Source: Xestospongia muta (Eukaryota; Porifera; Demospongiae; Haplosclerida; Petrosiidae). Taken from it: DNA of 64,000 nucleotides. Of the stretch, positions 48,263-64,000 are shown in pieces. The stretch lies in assembly GCA_963693285.1 (NCBI GenBank), contig OY848921.1, positions 7,887,229-7,951,228 of the forward strand. The letters run 5' to 3'. The translations under genes and the position numbers were made by a program. A model generated the notes under the pieces. That model had not been told where the DNA came from, did no database searches, and saw nothing but the letters and a program-made list of their open reading frames with translations. Each line of letters begins with the position of its first letter. Positions within the stretch are counted from its first letter, which is position 1.

Positions 48263-49033
48263 CTATAAAAGGCCTCATGAAATTTATTACATTAAGAAGC
48301 AAACAGTTGTCCCAAATCTCATTCCAACCTATGGTACTACTATAAATACTAATCACTAATGTCATTTATCTCATACCCAATGAGCTGAGAAATACAGTCC
48401 AACAGTTTTCCCCTTGTAATCATCCCAACTGATCTTGTGGCCATCTTTGTTTACAAATTCACCAGGTATAATTTCATCAAATTTCTCTGGTTTCCAAGGA
48501 AACCTATCTCCATTAGGATCTTCAGTAACAACAGAACAACCATCACTATTTATTAACTCCCCAGTTTTCGCATTCACAAAGACAAGATAAGGAATCCCAG
48601 ATACTTTAAAAGTTTTACTAAGTTTATTCTGTAAAGGAATATCATTATCATGAAAAAAAATAGATAGATAGATAGACAGTCCTTACATGCAGTACACTTT
48701 AGCCAGGCTTACTTTGATTTCTCTCTCATTATAGGGCAAACATAGCCAAGGCATGGAGTCAAAATACTCATCGAAAGTATCTTCATCACGATCAGAGCTG
48801 ACAAAGACAATCTCCAGTTTGTCTTTCAAAGCTGCTCCAGTCAGTTTAATGTACCATTCAGTTAGTTTAGGTGTGAACTCCCTGCATGGAGGACACCAAT
48901 GACCACTGAAATACAAGCCCAAAACTTTGCCTTCATCCTCTAAACTTTCAACAGGAACATCAGTTCTGCTGTCTTTCTTTCCATAACTGAAGTTCTTGAT
49001 CCCTTGAAATAAACCAGTGCTAAGAGTTGCCAT
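46479..49033 (-). CDS. NXN: Nucleoredoxin-like protein, copy 2
   Basis: Six exons (48713-49033, 48377-48628, 48009-48216, 47723-47814, 47504-47594, 46479-46789) give 424 residues. Exon lengths equal those of copy 1 except for one extra codon in exon 3. The first domain keeps FSGHWCPPCREFTP; the second reads SAHW/CGPCRVFTPKL, i.e. the classical thioredoxin WCGPC instead of CPPC. Other landmarks (LEIVFVSSDRDEDTF, MPWLCLPYNER, MPWYALPF, PFPVLAIVDVPNQLKYICD) are conserved. Intron sequence next to exons is also conserved between copies (for example AGATATATAAATCAATAAA before exon 5), so the duplication is fairly recent. The two copies are in the same orientation about 13 kb apart, with the SRCR gene between them. 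Confidence 0.94.
46920..47035. repeat. ACATGT-rich palindromic repeat in nucleoredoxin copy 2 intron
   Basis: Overlapping TACATGTACATG-type motifs, self-complementary on both strands. Similar short tracts occur in the matching intron of copy 1 (30703-30762) and in a HIP1R-like intron (25316-25380). Low complexity, not coding. Confidence 0.8.
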
Positions 49034-49430: not shown

Positions 49431-52400
49431 TTACAGTTTTATGTAGAGAGTTATTGATGGATTACTTTCAATAAGATTAAAAACATCTGACAACCACTCC
49501 ATCTTGACTTCCTCAATTTTCCTTCTCACACCATAGACACGTAGTAACAGATACGCCTTCTTAACTTGCTGTGCAAACTGAAGCTCTTTCCATGAGATAG
49601 GAATCAAAGTTCTGACAACAGATGTAGTACTTTTAACTTCAATATAGTACTCTATTTCATCATGAGCACTGATAACTTTAATATCATAAGGTAGACCAGA
49701 CTCTGTATGTTCATTCAACCACACTATACTTTTAATCTCAACTCCATTAGGTAATTTTCTTTGATGTTTGAGAATGTTAAAGACAAATGCTTCTCCCCAT
49801 CTACCAACTTCAAGTTTTTCTGATTTTCCATCTTCATTTGGAACTAATTGTGCAAACAAGTTTTTGTCAACTTGTATTGGTAGGCTCTTCATTAATGGAG
49901 TGATATCAACGGATTTAAGGTCAACGAAAGAAGGATTTGTTTTTTTCAATTTAGAAACCTCAGTTGAGTTTGCCTTGTTTCTAGGTACTACCTCTGTTGA
50001 CTCTTTTGCAGTAGTCATTTCTTCTTTAGAGGTCGATGATGTAGACTGCTTCAATATTTGATGAGATTTACCAGTTTGAGATAGAGTGACTTGCTGTGAT
50101 ATTAAAGAATGACCGGGAGGCTGACTGTCAGACTCACTATATACACTTCCAGCTGGGTTTTCCTGATTAGTGTCATATTGACTGGAACTAGACTGCTTAC
50201 TAATGGTAGGTTTTGGGGATTTGACAATTGATTTATGACATTCTTTCTCTCCAGCCTTTCTTTGAATCTGTAGTACATCTTCGGCAGCTGCAGTAATGAT
50301 ATCTCTCTCTGTTAACTTTCTCTGTTTATCATTTTTATATAAGAGTCCTGTAGCTTTCCTTGCATCCTGGTCTCTATCTATTCCTACAGGTGCTTTACGT
50401 GGCCATGTTCTTAAGCTTCCTTCAGTACCAGTACTGGCAGCTGGATAAGGACACTTATCAATGTAGAAAAGTGGTTGAAACTCTTGCTGTTGTGACTGAA
50501 GAGAAAATATTGGGTCACTTGAAGTGCTCGAAACAGAGAAGGGATTCACGGATATACTAGTAGGAGCTGCTATTTCTTCTGTAGATGACTGAGAAGTAGC
50601 ATTTTGTTGGGAGTAAATTTTCCCTACCAGTTCTTGTAGAGAAGAGACATCAAAGTACTCACACAAAACTGTAGACTTAAAACCATTTAGATTCTCAAAG
50701 GCAACTTCTAAATTTGAATATGACTCTTGAAGGAGGGGATGTAAAACTAATGCTAAGAGCTTATGATGAGAAATGACTATTTCTTCATTGTCTTTCTCAA
50801 TAAAAATATCCAGCACTTTATACATATGACTGACATCATTATAGCCATGTTTCTTCCTAACACATAATTTTTTATGAAAAATAGAAGCGTAAATCCTCTC
50901 GATTTTATTTTTCCTGATCATTGGACATTCTTTAAACAGTGGTAGCAATGACTGTAGTATCCTTCTCTGTCTTGCATTGGGTTCTTGAGTTTCTTCTACA
51001 TAACCAGTAGCAGGAACTAGATTAACAGCCAAAAGAGGTTCTAACATTTCAGGCTGTTTTGCAGGAGGTGGAATTGCTTCATGAGACCGTTCTTCTGTAT
51101 TTCGTATTATGTGTCTTTTATTAGAAGAGAGACTTCGTGTGTTGGGTATGGGATGTTCTGTTAAAAGAGGTGTGACTTCTATGACACCACTTCTTGTTGG
51201 ACTAGGAGAGAGAAATTGCCGAGATGGTTTTTTGTCAATATAGTAGAAAGGTTGAGGCTGTTTCTGTTTTGATTGCTGTGACATGGGAAATGTTACTGTA
51301 TTAGCTGAAGCTGTTAATAAAGACTGCTGCATAGATCTAGGTGTAGATACTGGTATTTTGATAGACGATAAAGGACCATTGGCTTGTTGAGAGTGAATCT
51401 CCTGTACCAGCTCATAAAGAGACAAGACATCACAGTATTCACACAATATTTCAGGCTTAAAACCGTTCAATGTCTCAAAGTCTGCTTCTAAATTTGAATG
51501 TGGCTGACTAAGAAGTGGTCCTAAAAGAAAGTCTAAAAGTTTAGGACGAGATATAGCTATTTCATCAGCACCTTTGTTAACAAAGACATCAATAATGGCA
51601 TACATATTATTATGATCTCTAAAGCCAAAATTCTTCTTAAGTGATAGCCCTTTCTTGAAAAGTCTGGAATAAACAACAGATATCTTGTGTTTTTTAATCA
51701 GTGGACATATTTTAAAAAAAGGTAGCAATAATTTAAGTACCTTTCTCTGTGTTGTGTTGGGTACACACGCGGGAACTAGATCAGCAGGTAAATGAGGTTT
51801 TAGCTTTTTTATGGGAGGTGGAGTTTCACCAGAAGGTTGGAGTGTGGGTGTGGCTGGCCTTTTAGAAGGTGCAACAATTTTCATTGGAGGAGACATGATT
51901 TTTACAGGCATAGTTGCTATTGAAGGGAAAAGGGGAGTGGGTAAGATTTGGTTAGGAGGAAGGAAATGAGGATGTGTGAGAATATAGGAAGAGTAAGTAA
52001 TGTGAGGAGGAGCAGCAATTATCGGATGAGGCTGAGATGGTACCATTGGTGTGGGGACACATGGTTGATGTATAGAAGTTGGTCTTGTAAATGATATCAT
52101 ATCTGTAGTGGTGTACTGTTGTGAGTGAATCTCCTCCATCAGTTCATAAAGAGACGATACATTACAATACTCACATAAAAACGTTGAGTTAAAACCATTT
52201 AACTTTTGAAAGGCCATTTCTAAATTTATAGGTGATTCTTGAAGGAGAGGTCGTATAAATAGTTCTAAGAGTTTAGGACGAGAAATCGATACTTTCCCAC
52301 ACTCCTCATTGAAAACATCTAATGCGTCATACATATGTTTAATACCCTTGTAGCCATGTTTTTTAACAGGTAATGTTTTATGAAAGAGAGAACAATATGT

Positions 52401-52511
52401 TTGGGCGATCTTCTGTTTGTCAATCAGTGGATAAACTTTAAACAAAGGCAACAATAACTCCAATATCTTTCTCTGTAACGCATTAAGTCCTAGAGAGTTT
52501 CGAGAAGCCAT
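49431..52511 (-). CDS. Intronless 3x LOTUS-like repeat + DUF3883 (NO VEIN/PD-(D/E)XK-like) protein
   Basis: One uninterrupted frame of 1026 residues. Three homologous units of about 120 residues lie at 11-130, 254-375 and 514-635. Each starts with a segment like a LOTUS/OST-HTH domain (ILELLLPLFK..., KIAQTYCSLFHKTLPVKK, GYKGIKHMYDALDVF, VSISRPKLL) and continues with a conserved extension (LNGFNSTFLCEYCNVSSLYE). Proline/serine/glutamine-rich linkers separate them. Residues 900-1026 match DUF3883, the NO VEIN C-terminal domain: EVGRWGEAFVF, IVWLNEHTESGLPYDI, YYIEVKST, ISWKELQFA, YLLLRVYGV. G-x-x-G-E (903-907), D943 and E958-x-K960 give a PD-(D/E)XK-type nuclease arrangement. LOTUS domains in animals bind RNA or Vasa-type helicases; the combination with a nuclease-like fold suggests nucleic-acid surveillance, which is inference. 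The LOTUS call rests on pattern only. A paralogue begins at 63230. Confidence 0.8.
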   Translation of the reverse strand: MASRNSLGLNALQRKILELLLPLFKVYPLIDKQKIAQTYCSLFHKTLPVKKHGYKGIKHMYDALDVFNEECGKVSISRPKLLELFIRPLLQESPINLEMAFQKLNGFNSTFLCEYCNVSSLYELMEEIHSQQYTTTDMISFTRPTSIHQPCVPTPMVPSQPHPIIAAPPHITYSSYILTHPHFLPPNQILPTPLFPSIATMPVKIMSPPMKIVAPSKRPATPTLQPSGETPPPIKKLKPHLPADLVPACVPNTTQRKVLKLLLPFFKICPLIKKHKISVVYSRLFKKGLSLKKNFGFRDHNNMYAIIDVFVNKGADEIAISRPKLLDFLLGPLLSQPHSNLEADFETLNGFKPEILCEYCDVLSLYELVQEIHSQQANGPLSSIKIPVSTPRSMQQSLLTASANTVTFPMSQQSKQKQPQPFYYIDKKPSRQFLSPSPTRSGVIEVTPLLTEHPIPNTRSLSSNKRHIIRNTEERSHEAIPPPAKQPEMLEPLLAVNLVPATGYVEETQEPNARQRRILQSLLPLFKECPMIRKNKIERIYASIFHKKLCVRKKHGYNDVSHMYKVLDIFIEKDNEEIVISHHKLLALVLHPLLQESYSNLEVAFENLNGFKSTVLCEYFDVSSLQELVGKIYSQQNATSQSSTEEIAAPTSISVNPFSVSSTSSDPIFSLQSQQQEFQPLFYIDKCPYPAASTGTEGSLRTWPRKAPVGIDRDQDARKATGLLYKNDKQRKLTERDIITAAAEDVLQIQRKAGEKECHKSIVKSPKPTISKQSSSSQYDTNQENPAGSVYSESDSQPPGHSLISQQVTLSQTGKSHQILKQSTSSTSKEEMTTAKESTEVVPRNKANSTEVSKLKKTNPSFVDLKSVDITPLMKSLPIQVDKNLFAQLVPNEDGKSEKLEVGRWGEAFVFNILKHQRKLPNGVEIKSIVWLNEHTESGLPYDIKVISAHDEIEYYIEVKSTTSVVRTLIPISWKELQFAQQVKKAYLLLRVYGVRRKIEEVKMEWLSDVFNLIESNPSITLYIKL

Positions 52512-52795
52512 TGCACCGGTCTTTCAAACTACAGGTAGCACGTGGACTAGGGTGGAGTTTGTAGCAAGGGGTTAAGTTTTATTTCATTACTAATAGCGTT
52601 TTTAGACCTAATATTATATTACAGTTAAGAATATCAAGTTAATCATATACATGATCCTGTATTAATATTGTATATACAGCCTTGATATATAAACAAACCT
52701 TTCATTTGATTTCATTAAAAATCTATTATATATATATATATAATGACTTAGCAATACAAAAATAGACACAAATACATTAGAAAGTAGCAGGATTA

Positions 52796-54277
52796 TTACC
52801 AAGGCCAATATTTCTTTACATAATCCGCTGCTGGTAACAGACTAAAACTATTTAAGAACCCTCTCACTAAACAAGGACTAAGTCCTTTAAAGAACACCTT
52901 TGATCCATTTTTCGCATATAACTTCTTAAAACAGTCCCATGATCCATGATATACATGTTTACTAGATATTCCATCAGTCTGAATTTTGGTTTTTACCACA
53001 TCAAAGGGATAGCTTGCAATCCACACAACACACCCGGTCATTCCCCCGGAAAGACTTCTCCAAAAAAGCCCTAAATCATCCACTGATCCTTCAGTACTTG
53101 TAAAGGTTTTGCAAAAGAAACGATAAGATGAAAAGTAGAGTCCAAAACTTGTACATTCTCGAGCAATAGTCATATTAAATCCCTTCATTATTCCTTTCCT
53201 AAATCCATCTTTCTGCCATATCAGTTTTGTTGTCTGCCAAGGACCACGGTACGTGTGATTTCTAGCAGATCGTGCCTCTCCTACTCCTTGGACCTGCATT
53301 CTCAATTTAATCAGTTCCATTGGACTACATACTATAGATTGGACACCACCAGCAATAGCACCAGACACAATTGAGTTAGGTATTGATTGAGTTCCCCCTT
53401 GAGGTTGCAATAACCTCATACACTGACCTTCCACATAAAATACAATGGCATTGATGAGTGCTTGACCACCAAGTGGATATGCCATCCCTTTGTAAAGACC
53501 ACGAATCTATTTGGAATAAAAGAGCAATTTTAAATGTATTTATTCTCCTATGAAATTACTTAATTGAGAGAAAATTTACACAAATATGTGCAATGCTGTG
53601 CAAATGGTGCTGTGTATAGATAAACAAAACAGGTCATTTACACAGTCCATTCATCAACAAAGCAACACATAGCCATCCTTTTTAAAGCCGTGAATCTATT
53701 TATAATGAAAGAGTAATTTTAAATAGCTTTATTCTTCTATGAAAATACTTAATCGAGAGAAAATATTACACAAAATATGTGTTAAGCTGTGTAAATGGGG
53801 CTGTGTATAGATAAACAAAACAGTTCATCTATACAGTAATTTTATACCATAGTAAAATGCTATATATGCTGACATGTATAAACATAATTTTGTTATTATA
53901 TTTGTGAAACTAACTCCTTCAGTTTTTAAAGTTTTCTTGAAACAATCCATTCCATTTTTATAGACAATACGTGTCTTCTCAGTAGTTAATCCATGATCTG
54001 TGTGACCAGCATCGATTTGAGCCTGTATTCGAGACTAGAAAGATGAAGAAAAATACATTGCTATGTCAACCAATGACACTTTTACTTTAACTGTATCAAA
54101 TGGCTGAGAAGTTAACAGACCAACACCACCTAATAATTATAAAAGTGTCACAAATTACAAATTATCACCATGACAGACATACAGACAGACAGACAGAACA
54201 CACACACACACACATACAATAGTTTCATTAAAGTGTTCATGTTGGCTCAGGAGAGACTTTGATGACACACACACACA

Positions 54278-54330
<53 letters not shown>

Positions 54331-54438
54331 CAACAGTATTGGCAAGGAATTATAAGGTATCTATGTACAGAGCACAAGCATTGGTTGCTGACCTCCTATT
54401 GCACCAGCAGTGATATCTCTAACAGCAATATCTGCCAT
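52796..54438 (-). CDS. SLC25A29-like mitochondrial carrier, copy A
   Basis: Four exons (54393-54438, 54086-54129, 53915-54034, 52796-53506) give 306 residues, the family's usual length. The three signature repeats read QPFDTVKSRIQ, SPMELIKLRMQ and YPFDVVKTKIQ, the P-x-[D/E]-x-x-[K/R] motifs of inner-membrane carriers. INAIVFYVEGQCMRLL, PMELIKLRMQVQG, SFGLYFSSYRFF and YPFDVVKTKIQTDG match the carnitine/basic-amino-acid carrier branch, closest by eye to SLC25A29 (also A20/A45/A48). Likely substrate: basic amino acids or acylcarnitine, not decidable here. Exon 1 (MADIAVRDITAGAIG) was found upstream of a (CA)n-rich intron. An almost identical gene follows at 55187-56611. Confidence 0.92.
53505..53830 (-). 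repeat. Internal duplication in carrier A intron 3, with pseudo-exon edge
   Basis: The exon-4 boundary and about 190 bp of intron are repeated: GAATCTATTTGGAATAAA at about 53503 recurs as GAATCTATTTATAATGAA at 53692, followed in both by AGAGTAATTTT or its variant and TAGATAAACAAAACAG. The extra copy includes a decayed version of the exon start (ATAGCCATCCTTTTTAAAG). Carrier B has only one copy, so this arose after, or was lost since, the gene duplication. Confidence 0.8.
54199..54329 (-). repeat. (CA)n / ACAG microsatellite in carrier A intron 1
   Basis: (CAGA)n then two (CA)n runs (54199-54214 and 54265-54328). Carrier B has a much shorter tract at the same place (56375-56390, 56484-56492), so the repeat expanded in A or contracted in B. 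Confidence 0.9.
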
Positions 54439-54796
54439 CCTGTTACCACAGAGATCCAGTTAATTCCCAAACTGATATCCTATGTTGACTTATTCACACT
54501 TTATTTGTGAGGAGTGTCCTCCTTAGCAGCATCAACCATAAATCATAAACAAACTTGAACTTTCGACGTTTTCTTATAAACTGCTGCTGTGGCTTGTTAT
54601 AACAATATTCATGAAGAAAACGCGAAGGACAAAAGTTATTCATACTTGTCTAATTAAGTAGAACACACACATTTCAGTGTTTCCTCTTCCTGTCAATCGA
54701 ATCATCATCTTTTCTGTAACACGTTAGCTCCTTGATCGTTTAAAACGCCATAACATAGGTTTTATCCAAATTACATGCTAGGACGTGGATTAAGGT

Positions 54797-54896: not shown

Positions 54897-55186
54897 GATT
54901 CAGGTGGAGTTTGCAGCAAAGCGTTAAATTTTATTTTGTTACTATATAGCAATGTTGTTTAGACCTAAAATATTATATTACAGTTAGGAATATCATGTAA
55001 ATTGCAGTTAATCATAAACATGATCCTGAATATACATACATCTGCCTTGATATGGAAACAAATTAAATTTCATTAAAAACTATAATAATATATATACTTT
55101 ATAAAATTTAAAAATATTTTTGAAAGAATAACTTAGCAATAAAAAATAGAATCTAAATGCAAATACAATAGAAGCTAACAGGACTA

Positions 55187-56611
55187 TTACCAAGGCCAAT
55201 ATTTCTTTACATAATCCGCTGCTGGTAACAGACTAAAATTATTCAAGAACCCTCTCACTAAACAAGGATTAAGTCCTTTAAAGAACACCTTTGATCCATT
55301 TTTAGCATATAATTTCTTAAAACAGTCCCATGATCCATGATATACATGTTTACCAGATATTCCATCAGTCTGAATTTTGGTTTTTACCACATCAAAGGGA
55401 TAGCTTGCAATCCACACAACACACCCGGTCATTCCCCCGGAAAGACTTCTCCAAAAAAGCCCTAAATCATCCACTGATCCTTCAGTACTTGCAAAGGCTT
55501 TGCAAAAGAAACGATAAGATGAAAAGTAGAGTCCAAAACTTGTACATTCTCGAGCAATAGTCATATTAAATCCCTTCATTATTCCTTTCCTAAATCCATC
55601 TTTCTGCCATATCAATTTTGTTGTCTGCCAAGGACCACGGTACGTGTGATTTCTGGCAGATCGTGCCTCTCCCATTCCTTGGACCTGCATTCTCAATTTA
55701 ATCAGTTCCATTGGACTACATACTATAGACTGGACACCACCAGCAATAGCACCAGACACAATTGAGTTTGGTATTGATTGATCATGAGTTCCTCCTTGAG
55801 GTTGCAATAACTTCATACACTGACCTTCTACATAAAATAATATTGCATTGATGAGTGCTTGACCACCAAGTGGATATGCCATCCCTTTGTAAAGACCAAG
55901 AATCTATTTGGAATAAAAGAGCAATTTTAAATCTTTTTTATTCTCCTATGAAATTACTTAATTGAGAGAAATAGTACACAAATATGTGTTAAGCTGTGTA
56001 AATGGTGCTGTCTATAGATAAACAAAACAGTTCATCTATACAGTAATATTATACCATAGTAAAATGCTATATATGCTGACATGTATAAACATAATTTTGT
56101 TATTATATTTGTGAAACGAACTCCTTCAGTTTTTATAGTTTTCTTGAAACAATCCATTCCATTTTTATAGACAATACGTGTCTTCTCAGTAGTTAATCCA
56201 TGATCTGTGTGACCAGCATCAATTTGAGCCTGTATTCGAGACTAGAATGATGAAGAAAAATACATTGCCATGTCAACCAATGATGCTTTTACTTTAACTG
56301 TATCAAATGGTTGAGAAGTTAACAGACCAACACCACCTAATAATTATAAAAGTGTCACAAATTAACACCATACAGACAGACAGACAGAGACACAATAGTT
56401 TCATCAAGACAGCTCATTCTAAGGCTGGCTCCATGGACACTCAACTTTTATAGTGTCCATGTTGGCTTAGGAAAGACTTTGATGAGACATACACACACTA
56501 CAACAGTATTGGCAAGGAATTATAATAAGGTATCTAAGTACAGAACACAAGCATTGGTTGCTGACCTCCAATTGCACCAGCAGTGATATCTCTAACAGCA
56601 ATATCTGCCAT
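55187..56611 (-). CDS. SLC25A29-like mitochondrial carrier, copy B
   Basis: Four exons (56566-56611, 56293-56336, 56122-56241, 55187-55903) give 308 residues. The first three exons have the same lengths as in carrier A; exon 4 is six bases longer because of a two-residue insertion (GGTHDQSIPN against GGTQSIPN). Other differences are few and mostly conservative (VGEAR/MGEAR, KTFTST/KAFAST, SPCLVRGFLNSF/NPCLVRGFLNNF), and all three signature motifs are intact, so both copies look functional. The donor of exon 3 is GTTCGT here and GTTAGT in A. This is one of two tandem, same-strand copies from a duplication of about 2.2 kb. Confidence 0.92.
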
Positions 56612-57689
56612 CCTGTTACCGCTGAGCCCTAGTTAATTCCTAAGTAATATCCTACCATAAACCCGCAGACTAATTACTTGTTCCCACTATTTATGAGGAG
56701 TGACTTCCTTAGTATTGTAAACTATGAACTTTTGATGTTTTTTTGGAACAACTGAAGTGGTTTGTTATAAGTGTCCAATTAAAACGAGCCAAATGCATAA
56801 GGCCAAAGTTCATTCAAACTTGTCTAAATAAATTGAACACACATATTTCACTATTCCTCTTCCTGTCAATCAAATAATTATCATCATGTTTCTCTAATAT
56901 TATAGTAATATGATATATTGGAAACAAATTATTTCTTCTAAATTGAAGAGTTTTTCTTTCTAATAATGTATTTTCCTTTTGAGAGATGTGCAAGATATAT
57001 TCTCAACTTAGCATGATCCGGTAATAATTTGACAATAATCTAGAAAAGACATCAGAAATCATTAATACATTTTAGAGCTTCAGTCAAAATGAGAGATCGG
57101 ATAGACCAATGAATGCAAATATAACTTCAGTCAACTCTACATAGACCATACTACTGTACACACAATAAAAATTATTATAATATACTGTTGCTAGTAGGAA
57201 TACACTATACATTAACCACATTTAGTAACTGTTACTCAAACATGACTAATATGTAGTAAACCCACCTCACTATTGGATATAGAAGAGATAATAGCCCTAC
57301 ATAATAGAAAGAACATAGTTACTACAAATGTATTTAATGTGTTAACAAAACACCTGTCTGAGCATTATAGCAAAGAACTCACTCAAGTGCTAACAATAGT
57401 AAGAACATTGTGGAACAGCACATGGTTTTTATATATTACTGTATAACTCAATACAATTATAGCTGGGTCCCGTTAAAGGAATTGCATTGTGGTATAAAGG
57501 GAAATTAGCAACACTGGATAATGCTGTTGCAATCCTTTTTTAAAAAACAGATACTATTTTGAATATGACAATAAACAGTATACACACTCAGTGTTATTAT
57601 TTTTGTCCTTTATATGCTAGTACAATATCTTTAATACATGGTCAGTCTATTTATCTAAGCAGTATATATACACACTCAATACACTAACG
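56612..57689. other. Region between carrier B start and the recognised part of SUDS3
   Basis: No clear gene. It must contain the carrier B promoter and the last exon(s) of SUDS3. One minus-strand candidate near 57440-57520 (after TTTAAAAAAGG...CAG) stays open for about 25 codons but does not resemble the SUDS3 C-terminus, so it is not annotated. Confidence 0.5.
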
Positions 57690-63229: not shown

Positions 63230-64000
63230 ATGGCGTCTCAAGAACCTAGTACGACGCAAAAGGAATTAATAAAACTGTTGCTACCTCTGTTTAAAAAGTG
63301 TCCATCGATCGACAAATACCAGATAACTAACTCTTATAATTCTGTTTTTCGTAAATCATTATCTGTCAAGAAATATGGCTATTCTAGTCTTGAACGAATG
63401 TATACTATCTTAGATGTTTTCAATGAGGAAGGCAAGAATGTTTCTATTTCTCGTCCCAAACTTTTAGAACTACTACTGCAACCACTCCTTAATGAGCAAC
63501 GTTCAAATTTAGAAACTGCCTTTGAGAAGCTAAATGGTTTTAAGTCTACAGTTTTGTGTGAGTACTGCGATGTCTCTTCTCTTTGTGAATTGATCGAGGA
63601 GCTCCGCTCACACAAGTCCACTGTATCATCTACAAAAGTGGATACATCATCTTGTTCTGGGATATCTGTGGGACCCTTTTCTTTATCAGCCACTTCAACT
63701 AATGCATCACAGTCTTTCCAATCACAACAACAAGAAAAGAAACAGCTTCAACCCCTCATATGTCCCCAAATCCCATCTCCTAGACCAGAACCTACAATAA
63801 GAGCTCCCTTATTAGATTTCCCACCACTTCCGATACCAAGTAACCCTCCTTTTATTAGACAAGTGATATCAACTAATAGAGAGTCTTCTGCTGAAAGAAA
63901 TCAGCCTCCTGTAAAGAAACCTATAAGCCCAATACCTGAATATGTTCAGCCTATCAATCCAGGTAATGCAATGGAAGGATCTCAAGAACTCAACACAAAA
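63230..64000 (+). CDS. LOTUS-like repeat protein, 5' part (runs off right edge)
   Basis: Open from ATG (MASQEPSTTQKELIKLLLPL) for 257 codons to the window end with no stop. Residues 10-128 are a fourth copy of the unit seen three times in the 1026-residue protein: IKLLLPLFKKCPSID, SVFRKSLSVKKYGY, MYTILDVFNEE, NVSISRPKLLELLLQPLL, LNGFKSTVLCEYCDVSSLCE. A proline/serine/glutamine-rich stretch follows, as in the paralogue. Both start MAS and lack introns in the visible part (a possible donor, CAG/gtaatg, occurs at 63962). It lies on the opposite strand about 11 kb from the paralogue. Whether it also ends in DUF3883 cannot be seen. Confidence 0.82.
   Translation, partial: MASQEPSTTQKELIKLLLPLFKKCPSIDKYQITNSYNSVFRKSLSVKKYGYSSLERMYTILDVFNEEGKNVSISRPKLLELLLQPLLNEQRSNLETAFEKLNGFKSTVLCEYCDVSSLCELIEELRSHKSTVSSTKVDTSSCSGISVGPFSLSATSTNASQSFQSQQQEKKQLQPLICPQIPSPRPEPTIRAPLLDFPPLPIPSNPPFIRQVISTNRESSAERNQPPVKKPISPIPEYVQPINPGNAMEGSQELNTK

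Follow-up and report, generated by a model that had tools for sequence, protein, structure and literature searches.

An intronless gene with LOTUS repeats and a NO VEIN C-terminal domain in the sponge Xestospongia muta, probably a short ATPase-less paralogue of an animal protein family

The window analysed here is a stretch of 64,000 nucleotides of the genome of the sponge Xestospongia muta (GenBank assembly GCA_963693285.1, contig OY848921.1, positions 7,887,229 to 7,951,228, or C5:7887229-7951228 in the 158 Mb and 28 contigs that constitute the whole genome searched). It carries an intronless open reading frame (ORF), P0001, which runs from ATG to stop on the minus strand, codes for 1026 amino acids (aa) and joins three LOTUS units to a C-terminal NOV_C domain of the nuclease type. 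On sequence evidence, P0001 is probably (at roughly 0.7) a short, ATPase-less paralogue of an animal LOTUS-NO VEIN family, of which two full-length relatives, here called genes A and B, are its neighbours. The features are listed below in nucleotide positions of the window, with aa positions referring to P0001.

49431..52511, minus strand: P0001, three LOTUS units, linker and NOV_C; recognised as an ORF, by PF13020 and by the copy P0002
52119..52496, minus strand: LOTUS repeat 1 with its helical extension, aa 6-131; predicted winged-helix core at about aa 10-78
51387..51770, minus strand: LOTUS repeat 2 with its extension, aa 248-375; 50-52% identity with repeats 1 and 3
50607..50990, minus strand: LOTUS repeat 3 with its extension, aa 508-635; LCEYF replaces LCEYC
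49431..50430, minus strand: C-terminal tail, linker and NOV_C; homologous to the last third of the final exon of gene A, 82% nucleotide identity
49443..49829, minus strand: predicted NOV_C domain of the PD-(D/E)XK type, aa 895-1023, with D943, E958 and K960
63230..64000, plus strand: start of gene A, a full-length relative continuing past the window end to 74121 (numbering carried on)

The stop-to-stop frame of P0001 is 1030 aa long, the nearest upstream stop lying 4 codons before the ATG, and by hand arithmetic the chance of a frame of such length is far below 1e-30 at the local G+C content of 0.34-0.38. A first-pass annotation, made from the sequence alone, had called a long intronless reading frame with three repeats, and both parts of the call stand. 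The frame is complete, and it is intact also in P0002, a protein from another public contig, which is 96.5% identical to P0001 over the whole 1026 aa with zero indels and which argues against an assembly artefact; the repeats, each about 126 aa long, share 50-57% identity. There are 36 differences between P0001 and P0002, of which 1, 3, and 2 fall in LOTUS units 1, 2, and 3, respectively, 5 in the C-terminal 150 residues, and 18 in the last linker.

Repeat 1 was modelled singly because modelling the whole of P0001 gave a poor result except in NOV_C (mean predicted local distance difference test, pLDDT, 43.4). Folded alone, it is predicted to form a LOTUS winged helix with four extra helices (pLDDT 93.8), and the best solved matches of this model are TDRD7, TDRD5, and Tejas. 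These are VIA-align rows, on which both fold assignments given here (LOTUS and NOV_C) rest, and not Foldseek, where the repeat model has no match at E <= 0.001, the top row being a ROQ domain (0.083) and the second a TDRD5 LOTUS domain with a probability of 0.97. Comparison of the sponge units with vertebrate LOTUS by hhalign gives 88.6% over 45 columns, while the best of 30 column shuffles gives 4.9%. A vertebrate-only LOTUS profile matches P0001 at 272-303 (repeat 2) and 520-567 (repeat 3), the former match being weak and the latter very weak when taken alone. Pfam OST-HTH has no match in P0001 and a weak one in gene A (17.2 bits among the window proteins and 18.2 bits in the genome search, with a cut-off of 23.8); it reaches 26.7 bits, above the cut-off, in P0006, a protein 98% identical to gene A and taken as its allele. 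The sequence search of the PDB returned 0 matches with P0001 and 0 with A2, a profile of seven sponge units. A passage of PMC2848206 places a motif, Ghxph, between helices 2 and 3 of LOTUS. It is fitted strictly by five of the seven sponge units (GYSSL in three, GYKNL, and GYNDV), in P0001 by repeat 3 only, with GYKGI and GFRDH in repeats 1 and 2, and its G is invariant in 7/7 sponge units and 16/16 aligned rows.

Owing to the repeat 1 model, the profile-profile comparison and the vertebrate-only profile, the repeats of P0001, annotated before as LOTUS-like, are regarded as predicted winged-helix LOTUS domains, one unit by modelling and the others by homology. The cysteine-containing extension that follows each unit, for which the first-pass annotation had no explanation, forms in the model a set of helices appended to the winged helix. 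A CxxC metal site in this extension was considered and rejected: the second cysteine is replaced by phenylalanine in repeat 3 (LCEYF), so the site is not conserved, and a CxxC metal site common to all these extensions is therefore unlikely. Eight more OST-HTH stretches, six of them over the Pfam cut-off, are found beyond the cluster (on C6, C10, C15, and C7) and possibly belong to TDRD5/7 or MARF1 genes.

The C-terminal domain matches NOV_C PF13020 (DUF3883) at residues 907-998 with E=5.7e-15 (55.6 bits, cut-off 22.1), and in the predicted model it has a PD-(D/E)XK-type fold with D943, E958, and K960 as the D...ExK residues, in agreement with the DUF3883 nuclease-like domain proposed earlier. 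E958 and K960, the residues by which that proposal was to be judged across relatives, are retained in 34/34 aligned rows. The leading fold matches in VIA-align are DNA nucleases; Foldseek with the full-length model has no match at E <= 0.001, Rep15:Rab3B being first (0.084) and R.SwaI fourth, and an NCBIfam scan of P0001 returned nothing. The PF13020 search of the genome found three NOV_C places, all in this cluster, two of which belong to the full-length genes. In addition, an isolated scrap of a NOV_C end with internal stops is located at C1:25814403-25814594; it is 61% identical to P0001 and, over a shorter stretch, 75% identical to P0003 (a protein itself 98% identical to the C-terminal exon of gene A), and by its sequence looks like a dead dispersed copy.

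Gene A (63230-74121, window numbering carried on) comprises 15 predicted exons coding for 3250 aa, in the order three LOTUS units, a middle part, a GHKL/sacsin-type ATPase, and NOV_C, and gene B (75785-85305, same numbering) comprises 15 exons coding for 2773 aa with one LOTUS unit. The splicing of both is predicted, GT-AG sites having been picked by hand with the two paralogues as a guide, and is supported, in either gene, by 15 blocks that join up as a single open frame. The ATPase exon of gene A matches NF047352 (3.7e-21) and SACS PF25794 (1.5e-11), both over the cut-off, the general HATPase Pfam models being below theirs; Pfam matches to LIF_OSM, ANAPC2, Tau95, zf-U1, and RPT were also below the cut-off and were treated as noise. 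The middle of gene B is 92.5% identical to that of gene A and its NOV_C is over the cut-off. P0001, gene A, and gene B all lie within about 36 kb. P0001 consists of LOTUS units like those of gene A and of the last third of its final exon, everything between them being absent, that is roughly 2200 residues including the GHKL ATPase. In gene A the LOTUS array is located inside exon 1 and the tail inside exon 15, which accounts for the lack of introns in P0001 and makes a retrogene origin unnecessary. The combination of LOTUS with a nuclease, described at first as a fusion not met before, turns out to be no new fusion, both parts being the ends of a long animal protein with a GHKL ATPase between them.

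Residues 1450-3250 of gene A, used as a query, retrieved 26 proteins, five of which have a precomputed OST-HTH (P0020 of Alosa, P0021 of Narcine, P0023 of Carcharodon, P0030 of Chiloscyllium, and P0039 of Myxine), P0039 without NOV_C and P0030 without SACS listed in the precomputed rows. On rescanning, OST-HTH, SACS, and NOV_C were found together in the shark (Carcharodon), the ray (Narcine), and the alewife (Alosa), P0023 having four OST-HTH stretches (E=3.2e-30). The rescanned mollusc proteins P0018, P0024, and P0019 have SACS and NOV_C and no Pfam OST-HTH; the UniRef name of P0018 is HTH OST-type protein. The profile of vertebrate LOTUS, derived from P0020, P0021, and P0023, matches P0030 (7.1e-81), P0039 (1.3e-18), the bivalve P0018 (7.3e-11), the crinoid P0029 (1.1e-9) and P0026 (1.5e-8), P0022 (1.7e-7), and the gastropod P0024 (6.7e-4). 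P0025 gives only 0.25, and nothing was matched at E <= 1 in P0017, P0019, P0027, P0028, P0031-P0038, and P0040-P0042. The LOTUS-ATPase-NOV_C order, as read from these sequences, is found in sharks, a ray, and a bony fish and, by profile, in a crinoid and a bivalve, and by sequence homology the full-length family is the animal counterpart of plant NO VEIN. P0001 holds both ends of this order without the ATPase; judged by the homology of these ends it descends from the animal LOTUS-NO VEIN family, although it falls short of full membership. Among these 26 proteins and the candidates with most words in common with the query that were scored in two further searches (7997 and 7988), the only ATPase-less LOTUS-NOV_C proteins are P0001 and P0002.

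The PADLOC model of TmtA, which we take to be the protein behind Tiamat, an anti-phage system, matches the ATPase exon of gene A (1.5e-49), P0003 (1e-31), and the tail of P0001 (2.6e-21). Shark P0023 matches with residues 1473-3157 positions 4-1291 of the 1302 of TmtA in one stretch (E=1.3e-149), while plant P0031, the one of eight named plant rows that was scanned, matches it in two stretches (1.1e-127) and a second TmtA model in one stretch (1.2e-92, positions 6-1637 of 1655). By these alignments the full-length animal proteins are collinear with TmtA from the ATPase onward. With membership taken, from the extent of the TmtA matches, as a GHKL ATPase and a C-terminal NOV_C in one protein, gene A has both and P0001 falls outside, having NOV_C only. 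Tiamat is named among anti-phage systems in passages of PMC12629846 and PMC10855318, the latter of which gives its mechanism as unknown. In a metagenome survey (PMC12409356), 100% of the 'Tiamat' matches in plant samples lay on plant genome sequences, for reasons which, according to the passage concerned, need further work; the resemblance of plant NO VEIN to TmtA, seen in P0031, would explain them. In the literature searched, which mostly excludes subscription papers, no paper was found that joins 'LOTUS domain' or 'OST-HTH' with 'NO VEIN', or 'Tiamat' with 'NO VEIN'; PMC3710099 contains both 'OST-HTH' and 'DUF3883', its DUF3883 passage dealing with a bacterial helicase.

The synonymous divergence (dS) between P0001 and gene A is 0.30 in the tail (72% identity) and 0.72-1.35 in LOTUS over all nine unit pairs, a range that may be overstated, as the unit-to-unit correspondence is ambiguous; between P0001 and gene B it is 0.58 and 0.67-0.92, respectively. 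Because of the former difference, the two ends of P0001 are held to have different histories at the sequence level, the tail being younger than the LOTUS units relative to gene A. The tail tree unites P0001 with gene A and leaves P0004, a related protein of the A type, outside (node 86/83, below the star limit), and in the repeat tree the P0001 repeats do not fall within the repeat clades of gene A; neither tree settles its deep forks. A single simple deletion of the gene A middle is disfavoured by the unequal dS and by the repeats lying outside the A clades, and these sequences are better accounted for by conversion of the tail or by a fusion at a later time. In the DNA comparison, no homology was seen either upstream of 52476 or past the stop of P0001. 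Recent gene conversion has apparently affected the cluster, since the middle exons and, on visual inspection, several introns of genes A and B (66075-71217 and 77218-82382, numbering carried on) are nearly the same while the ends of the two genes have diverged: dS is 0.11 in the middle versus 0.63-1.31 for LOTUS pairs. For all parts compared, the pairwise estimates of omega (the ratio of nonsynonymous to synonymous divergence) lie below 1 (between P0001 and gene A 0.31 in NOV_C and 0.53 in the whole tail; 0.21-0.54 in LOTUS), which suggests that P0001 may have retained a function.

Elsewhere in the window, a mitochondrial carrier gene is present in tandem copies at 52551-53646 and 54903-56044, 88% identical in nucleotide sequence (ORFs 52796-53485 and 55187-55882, minus strand), and near them a second stretch, 53672-54709, is repeated at 55878-56882 (78%). 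A minus-strand ORF with a WCPPC motif at 48683-49033 is presumably a nucleoredoxin/thioredoxin-type exon.

In the full-length proteins the LOTUS array would pick or place an RNA or ribonucleoprotein target, the ATPase would open or close the nuclease, and NOV_C would cut. LOTUS domains bound G4 RNA in an enzyme-linked immunosorbent assay, as recounted in a passage of PMC12247748, and in VcSduA the GHKL domain is hypothesised to control a PD-(D/E)XK nuclease (passage of PMC12137116). In P0001 the targeting and cutting parts would be kept and the gate would be gone, leaving a LOTUS-recruited nuclease or a partner of the long proteins that may act against viruses or transposons. The resemblance to TmtA lends some indirect support to the earlier suggestion that the gene may control transposons or viruses. 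A defence role for P0001, whether as such an active nuclease or as an accessory subunit serving the long proteins, is given somewhat less than an even chance, the weights of the defence, regulator or decoy, and germline RNA roles overlapping.

A more doubtful explanation places P0001 with Oskar, TDRD5/7, and MARF1 as a regulator of germline mRNA, in which NOV_C would be an RNase or would bind proteins and would not be a defence nuclease. It draws on the work of LOTUS proteins in germ granules and the binding of Vasa by some LOTUS domains, reported in a passage of PMC5458760, and on a NO VEIN-like transcript that is female-biased in an acanthocephalan (passage of PMC12690905). However, this analysis contains no link of the window gene to germ cells, the leading NOV_C fold matches are DNA nucleases, and no LOTUS is seen in the rows of named plant NO VEIN proteins, so the nuclease part is independent of it. 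Slightly less probable again is a regulator, a subunit or decoy that mainly pairs or competes with full-length A and B and whose own cutting is secondary; the absence of the long genes' ATPase, the 72% tail identity to A with a similar N-terminal array, and the clustering within about 36 kb speak for it, but a pure decoy would need neither the retained active-site residues nor an omega of 0.31 in NOV_C. Finally, it is improbable that P0001 is a decaying chimera, a recombination by-product of the cluster with no selected role, for although the age gap between its ends relative to gene A, its nesting beside gene A in the tail tree (at a node below the star limit), the fast-evolving last linker with its 18/36 differences to P0002, and the stop-bearing scrap on C1 would suit such an origin, two copies both have the 1026-codon frame open, without an indel between them, and omega is below 1 in all parts compared.

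The animal family is old and largely unstudied, and P0001 is its shortened form. The wider proposal is tentative and, taken as a whole, unlikely: from sponges to sharks, animals would carry a LOTUS-guided relative of a Tiamat-type machine, in which LOTUS targets RNA or the germ granule and the ATPase gates the nuclease, plant NO VEIN would be the same machine minus LOTUS, and P0001 its gateless version. The main interest lies in the link, at the level of the family, to a bacterial defence protein, and P0001 is in effect a natural experiment on what the LOTUS and nuclease parts do when the ATPase is missing.

Among known systems, the animal 'protein NO VEIN' (P0023, P0021, and P0020), also named Wu:fj29h11 in a passage of PMC12690905, shares with P0001 the N-terminal LOTUS array and the C-terminal NOV_C, whereas the LOTUS units of P0001 have a longer helical extension than the aligned vertebrate cores. 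Plant NO VEIN (P0031-P0033, P0035-P0038, and P0040) has NOV_C in 7/8 rows, P0040 being partial, and shares the ATPase and part of the middle with full-length genes A and B; LOTUS was found in 0/8 of the named rows, either in the Pfam listing or with the vertebrate LOTUS profile. P0001 differs from Oskar, TDRD5/Tejas, TDRD7, and MARF1 in that Tudor, SGNH, and NYN domains were not found in it and that its nuclease is of the predicted PD-(D/E)XK type. GHKL-type Shedu (VcSduA) has a GHKL ATPase followed by a PD-(D/E)XK nuclease, an arrangement analogous to that of gene A (passage of PMC12137116); its nuclease is DUF4263, unlike NOV_C, and it is by domain order that it is likened to NO VEIN. As for TmtA, the match covers the ATPase and C-terminal exons of gene A and leaves the LOTUS array outside, while P0001 shares with it NOV_C but not the ATPase.

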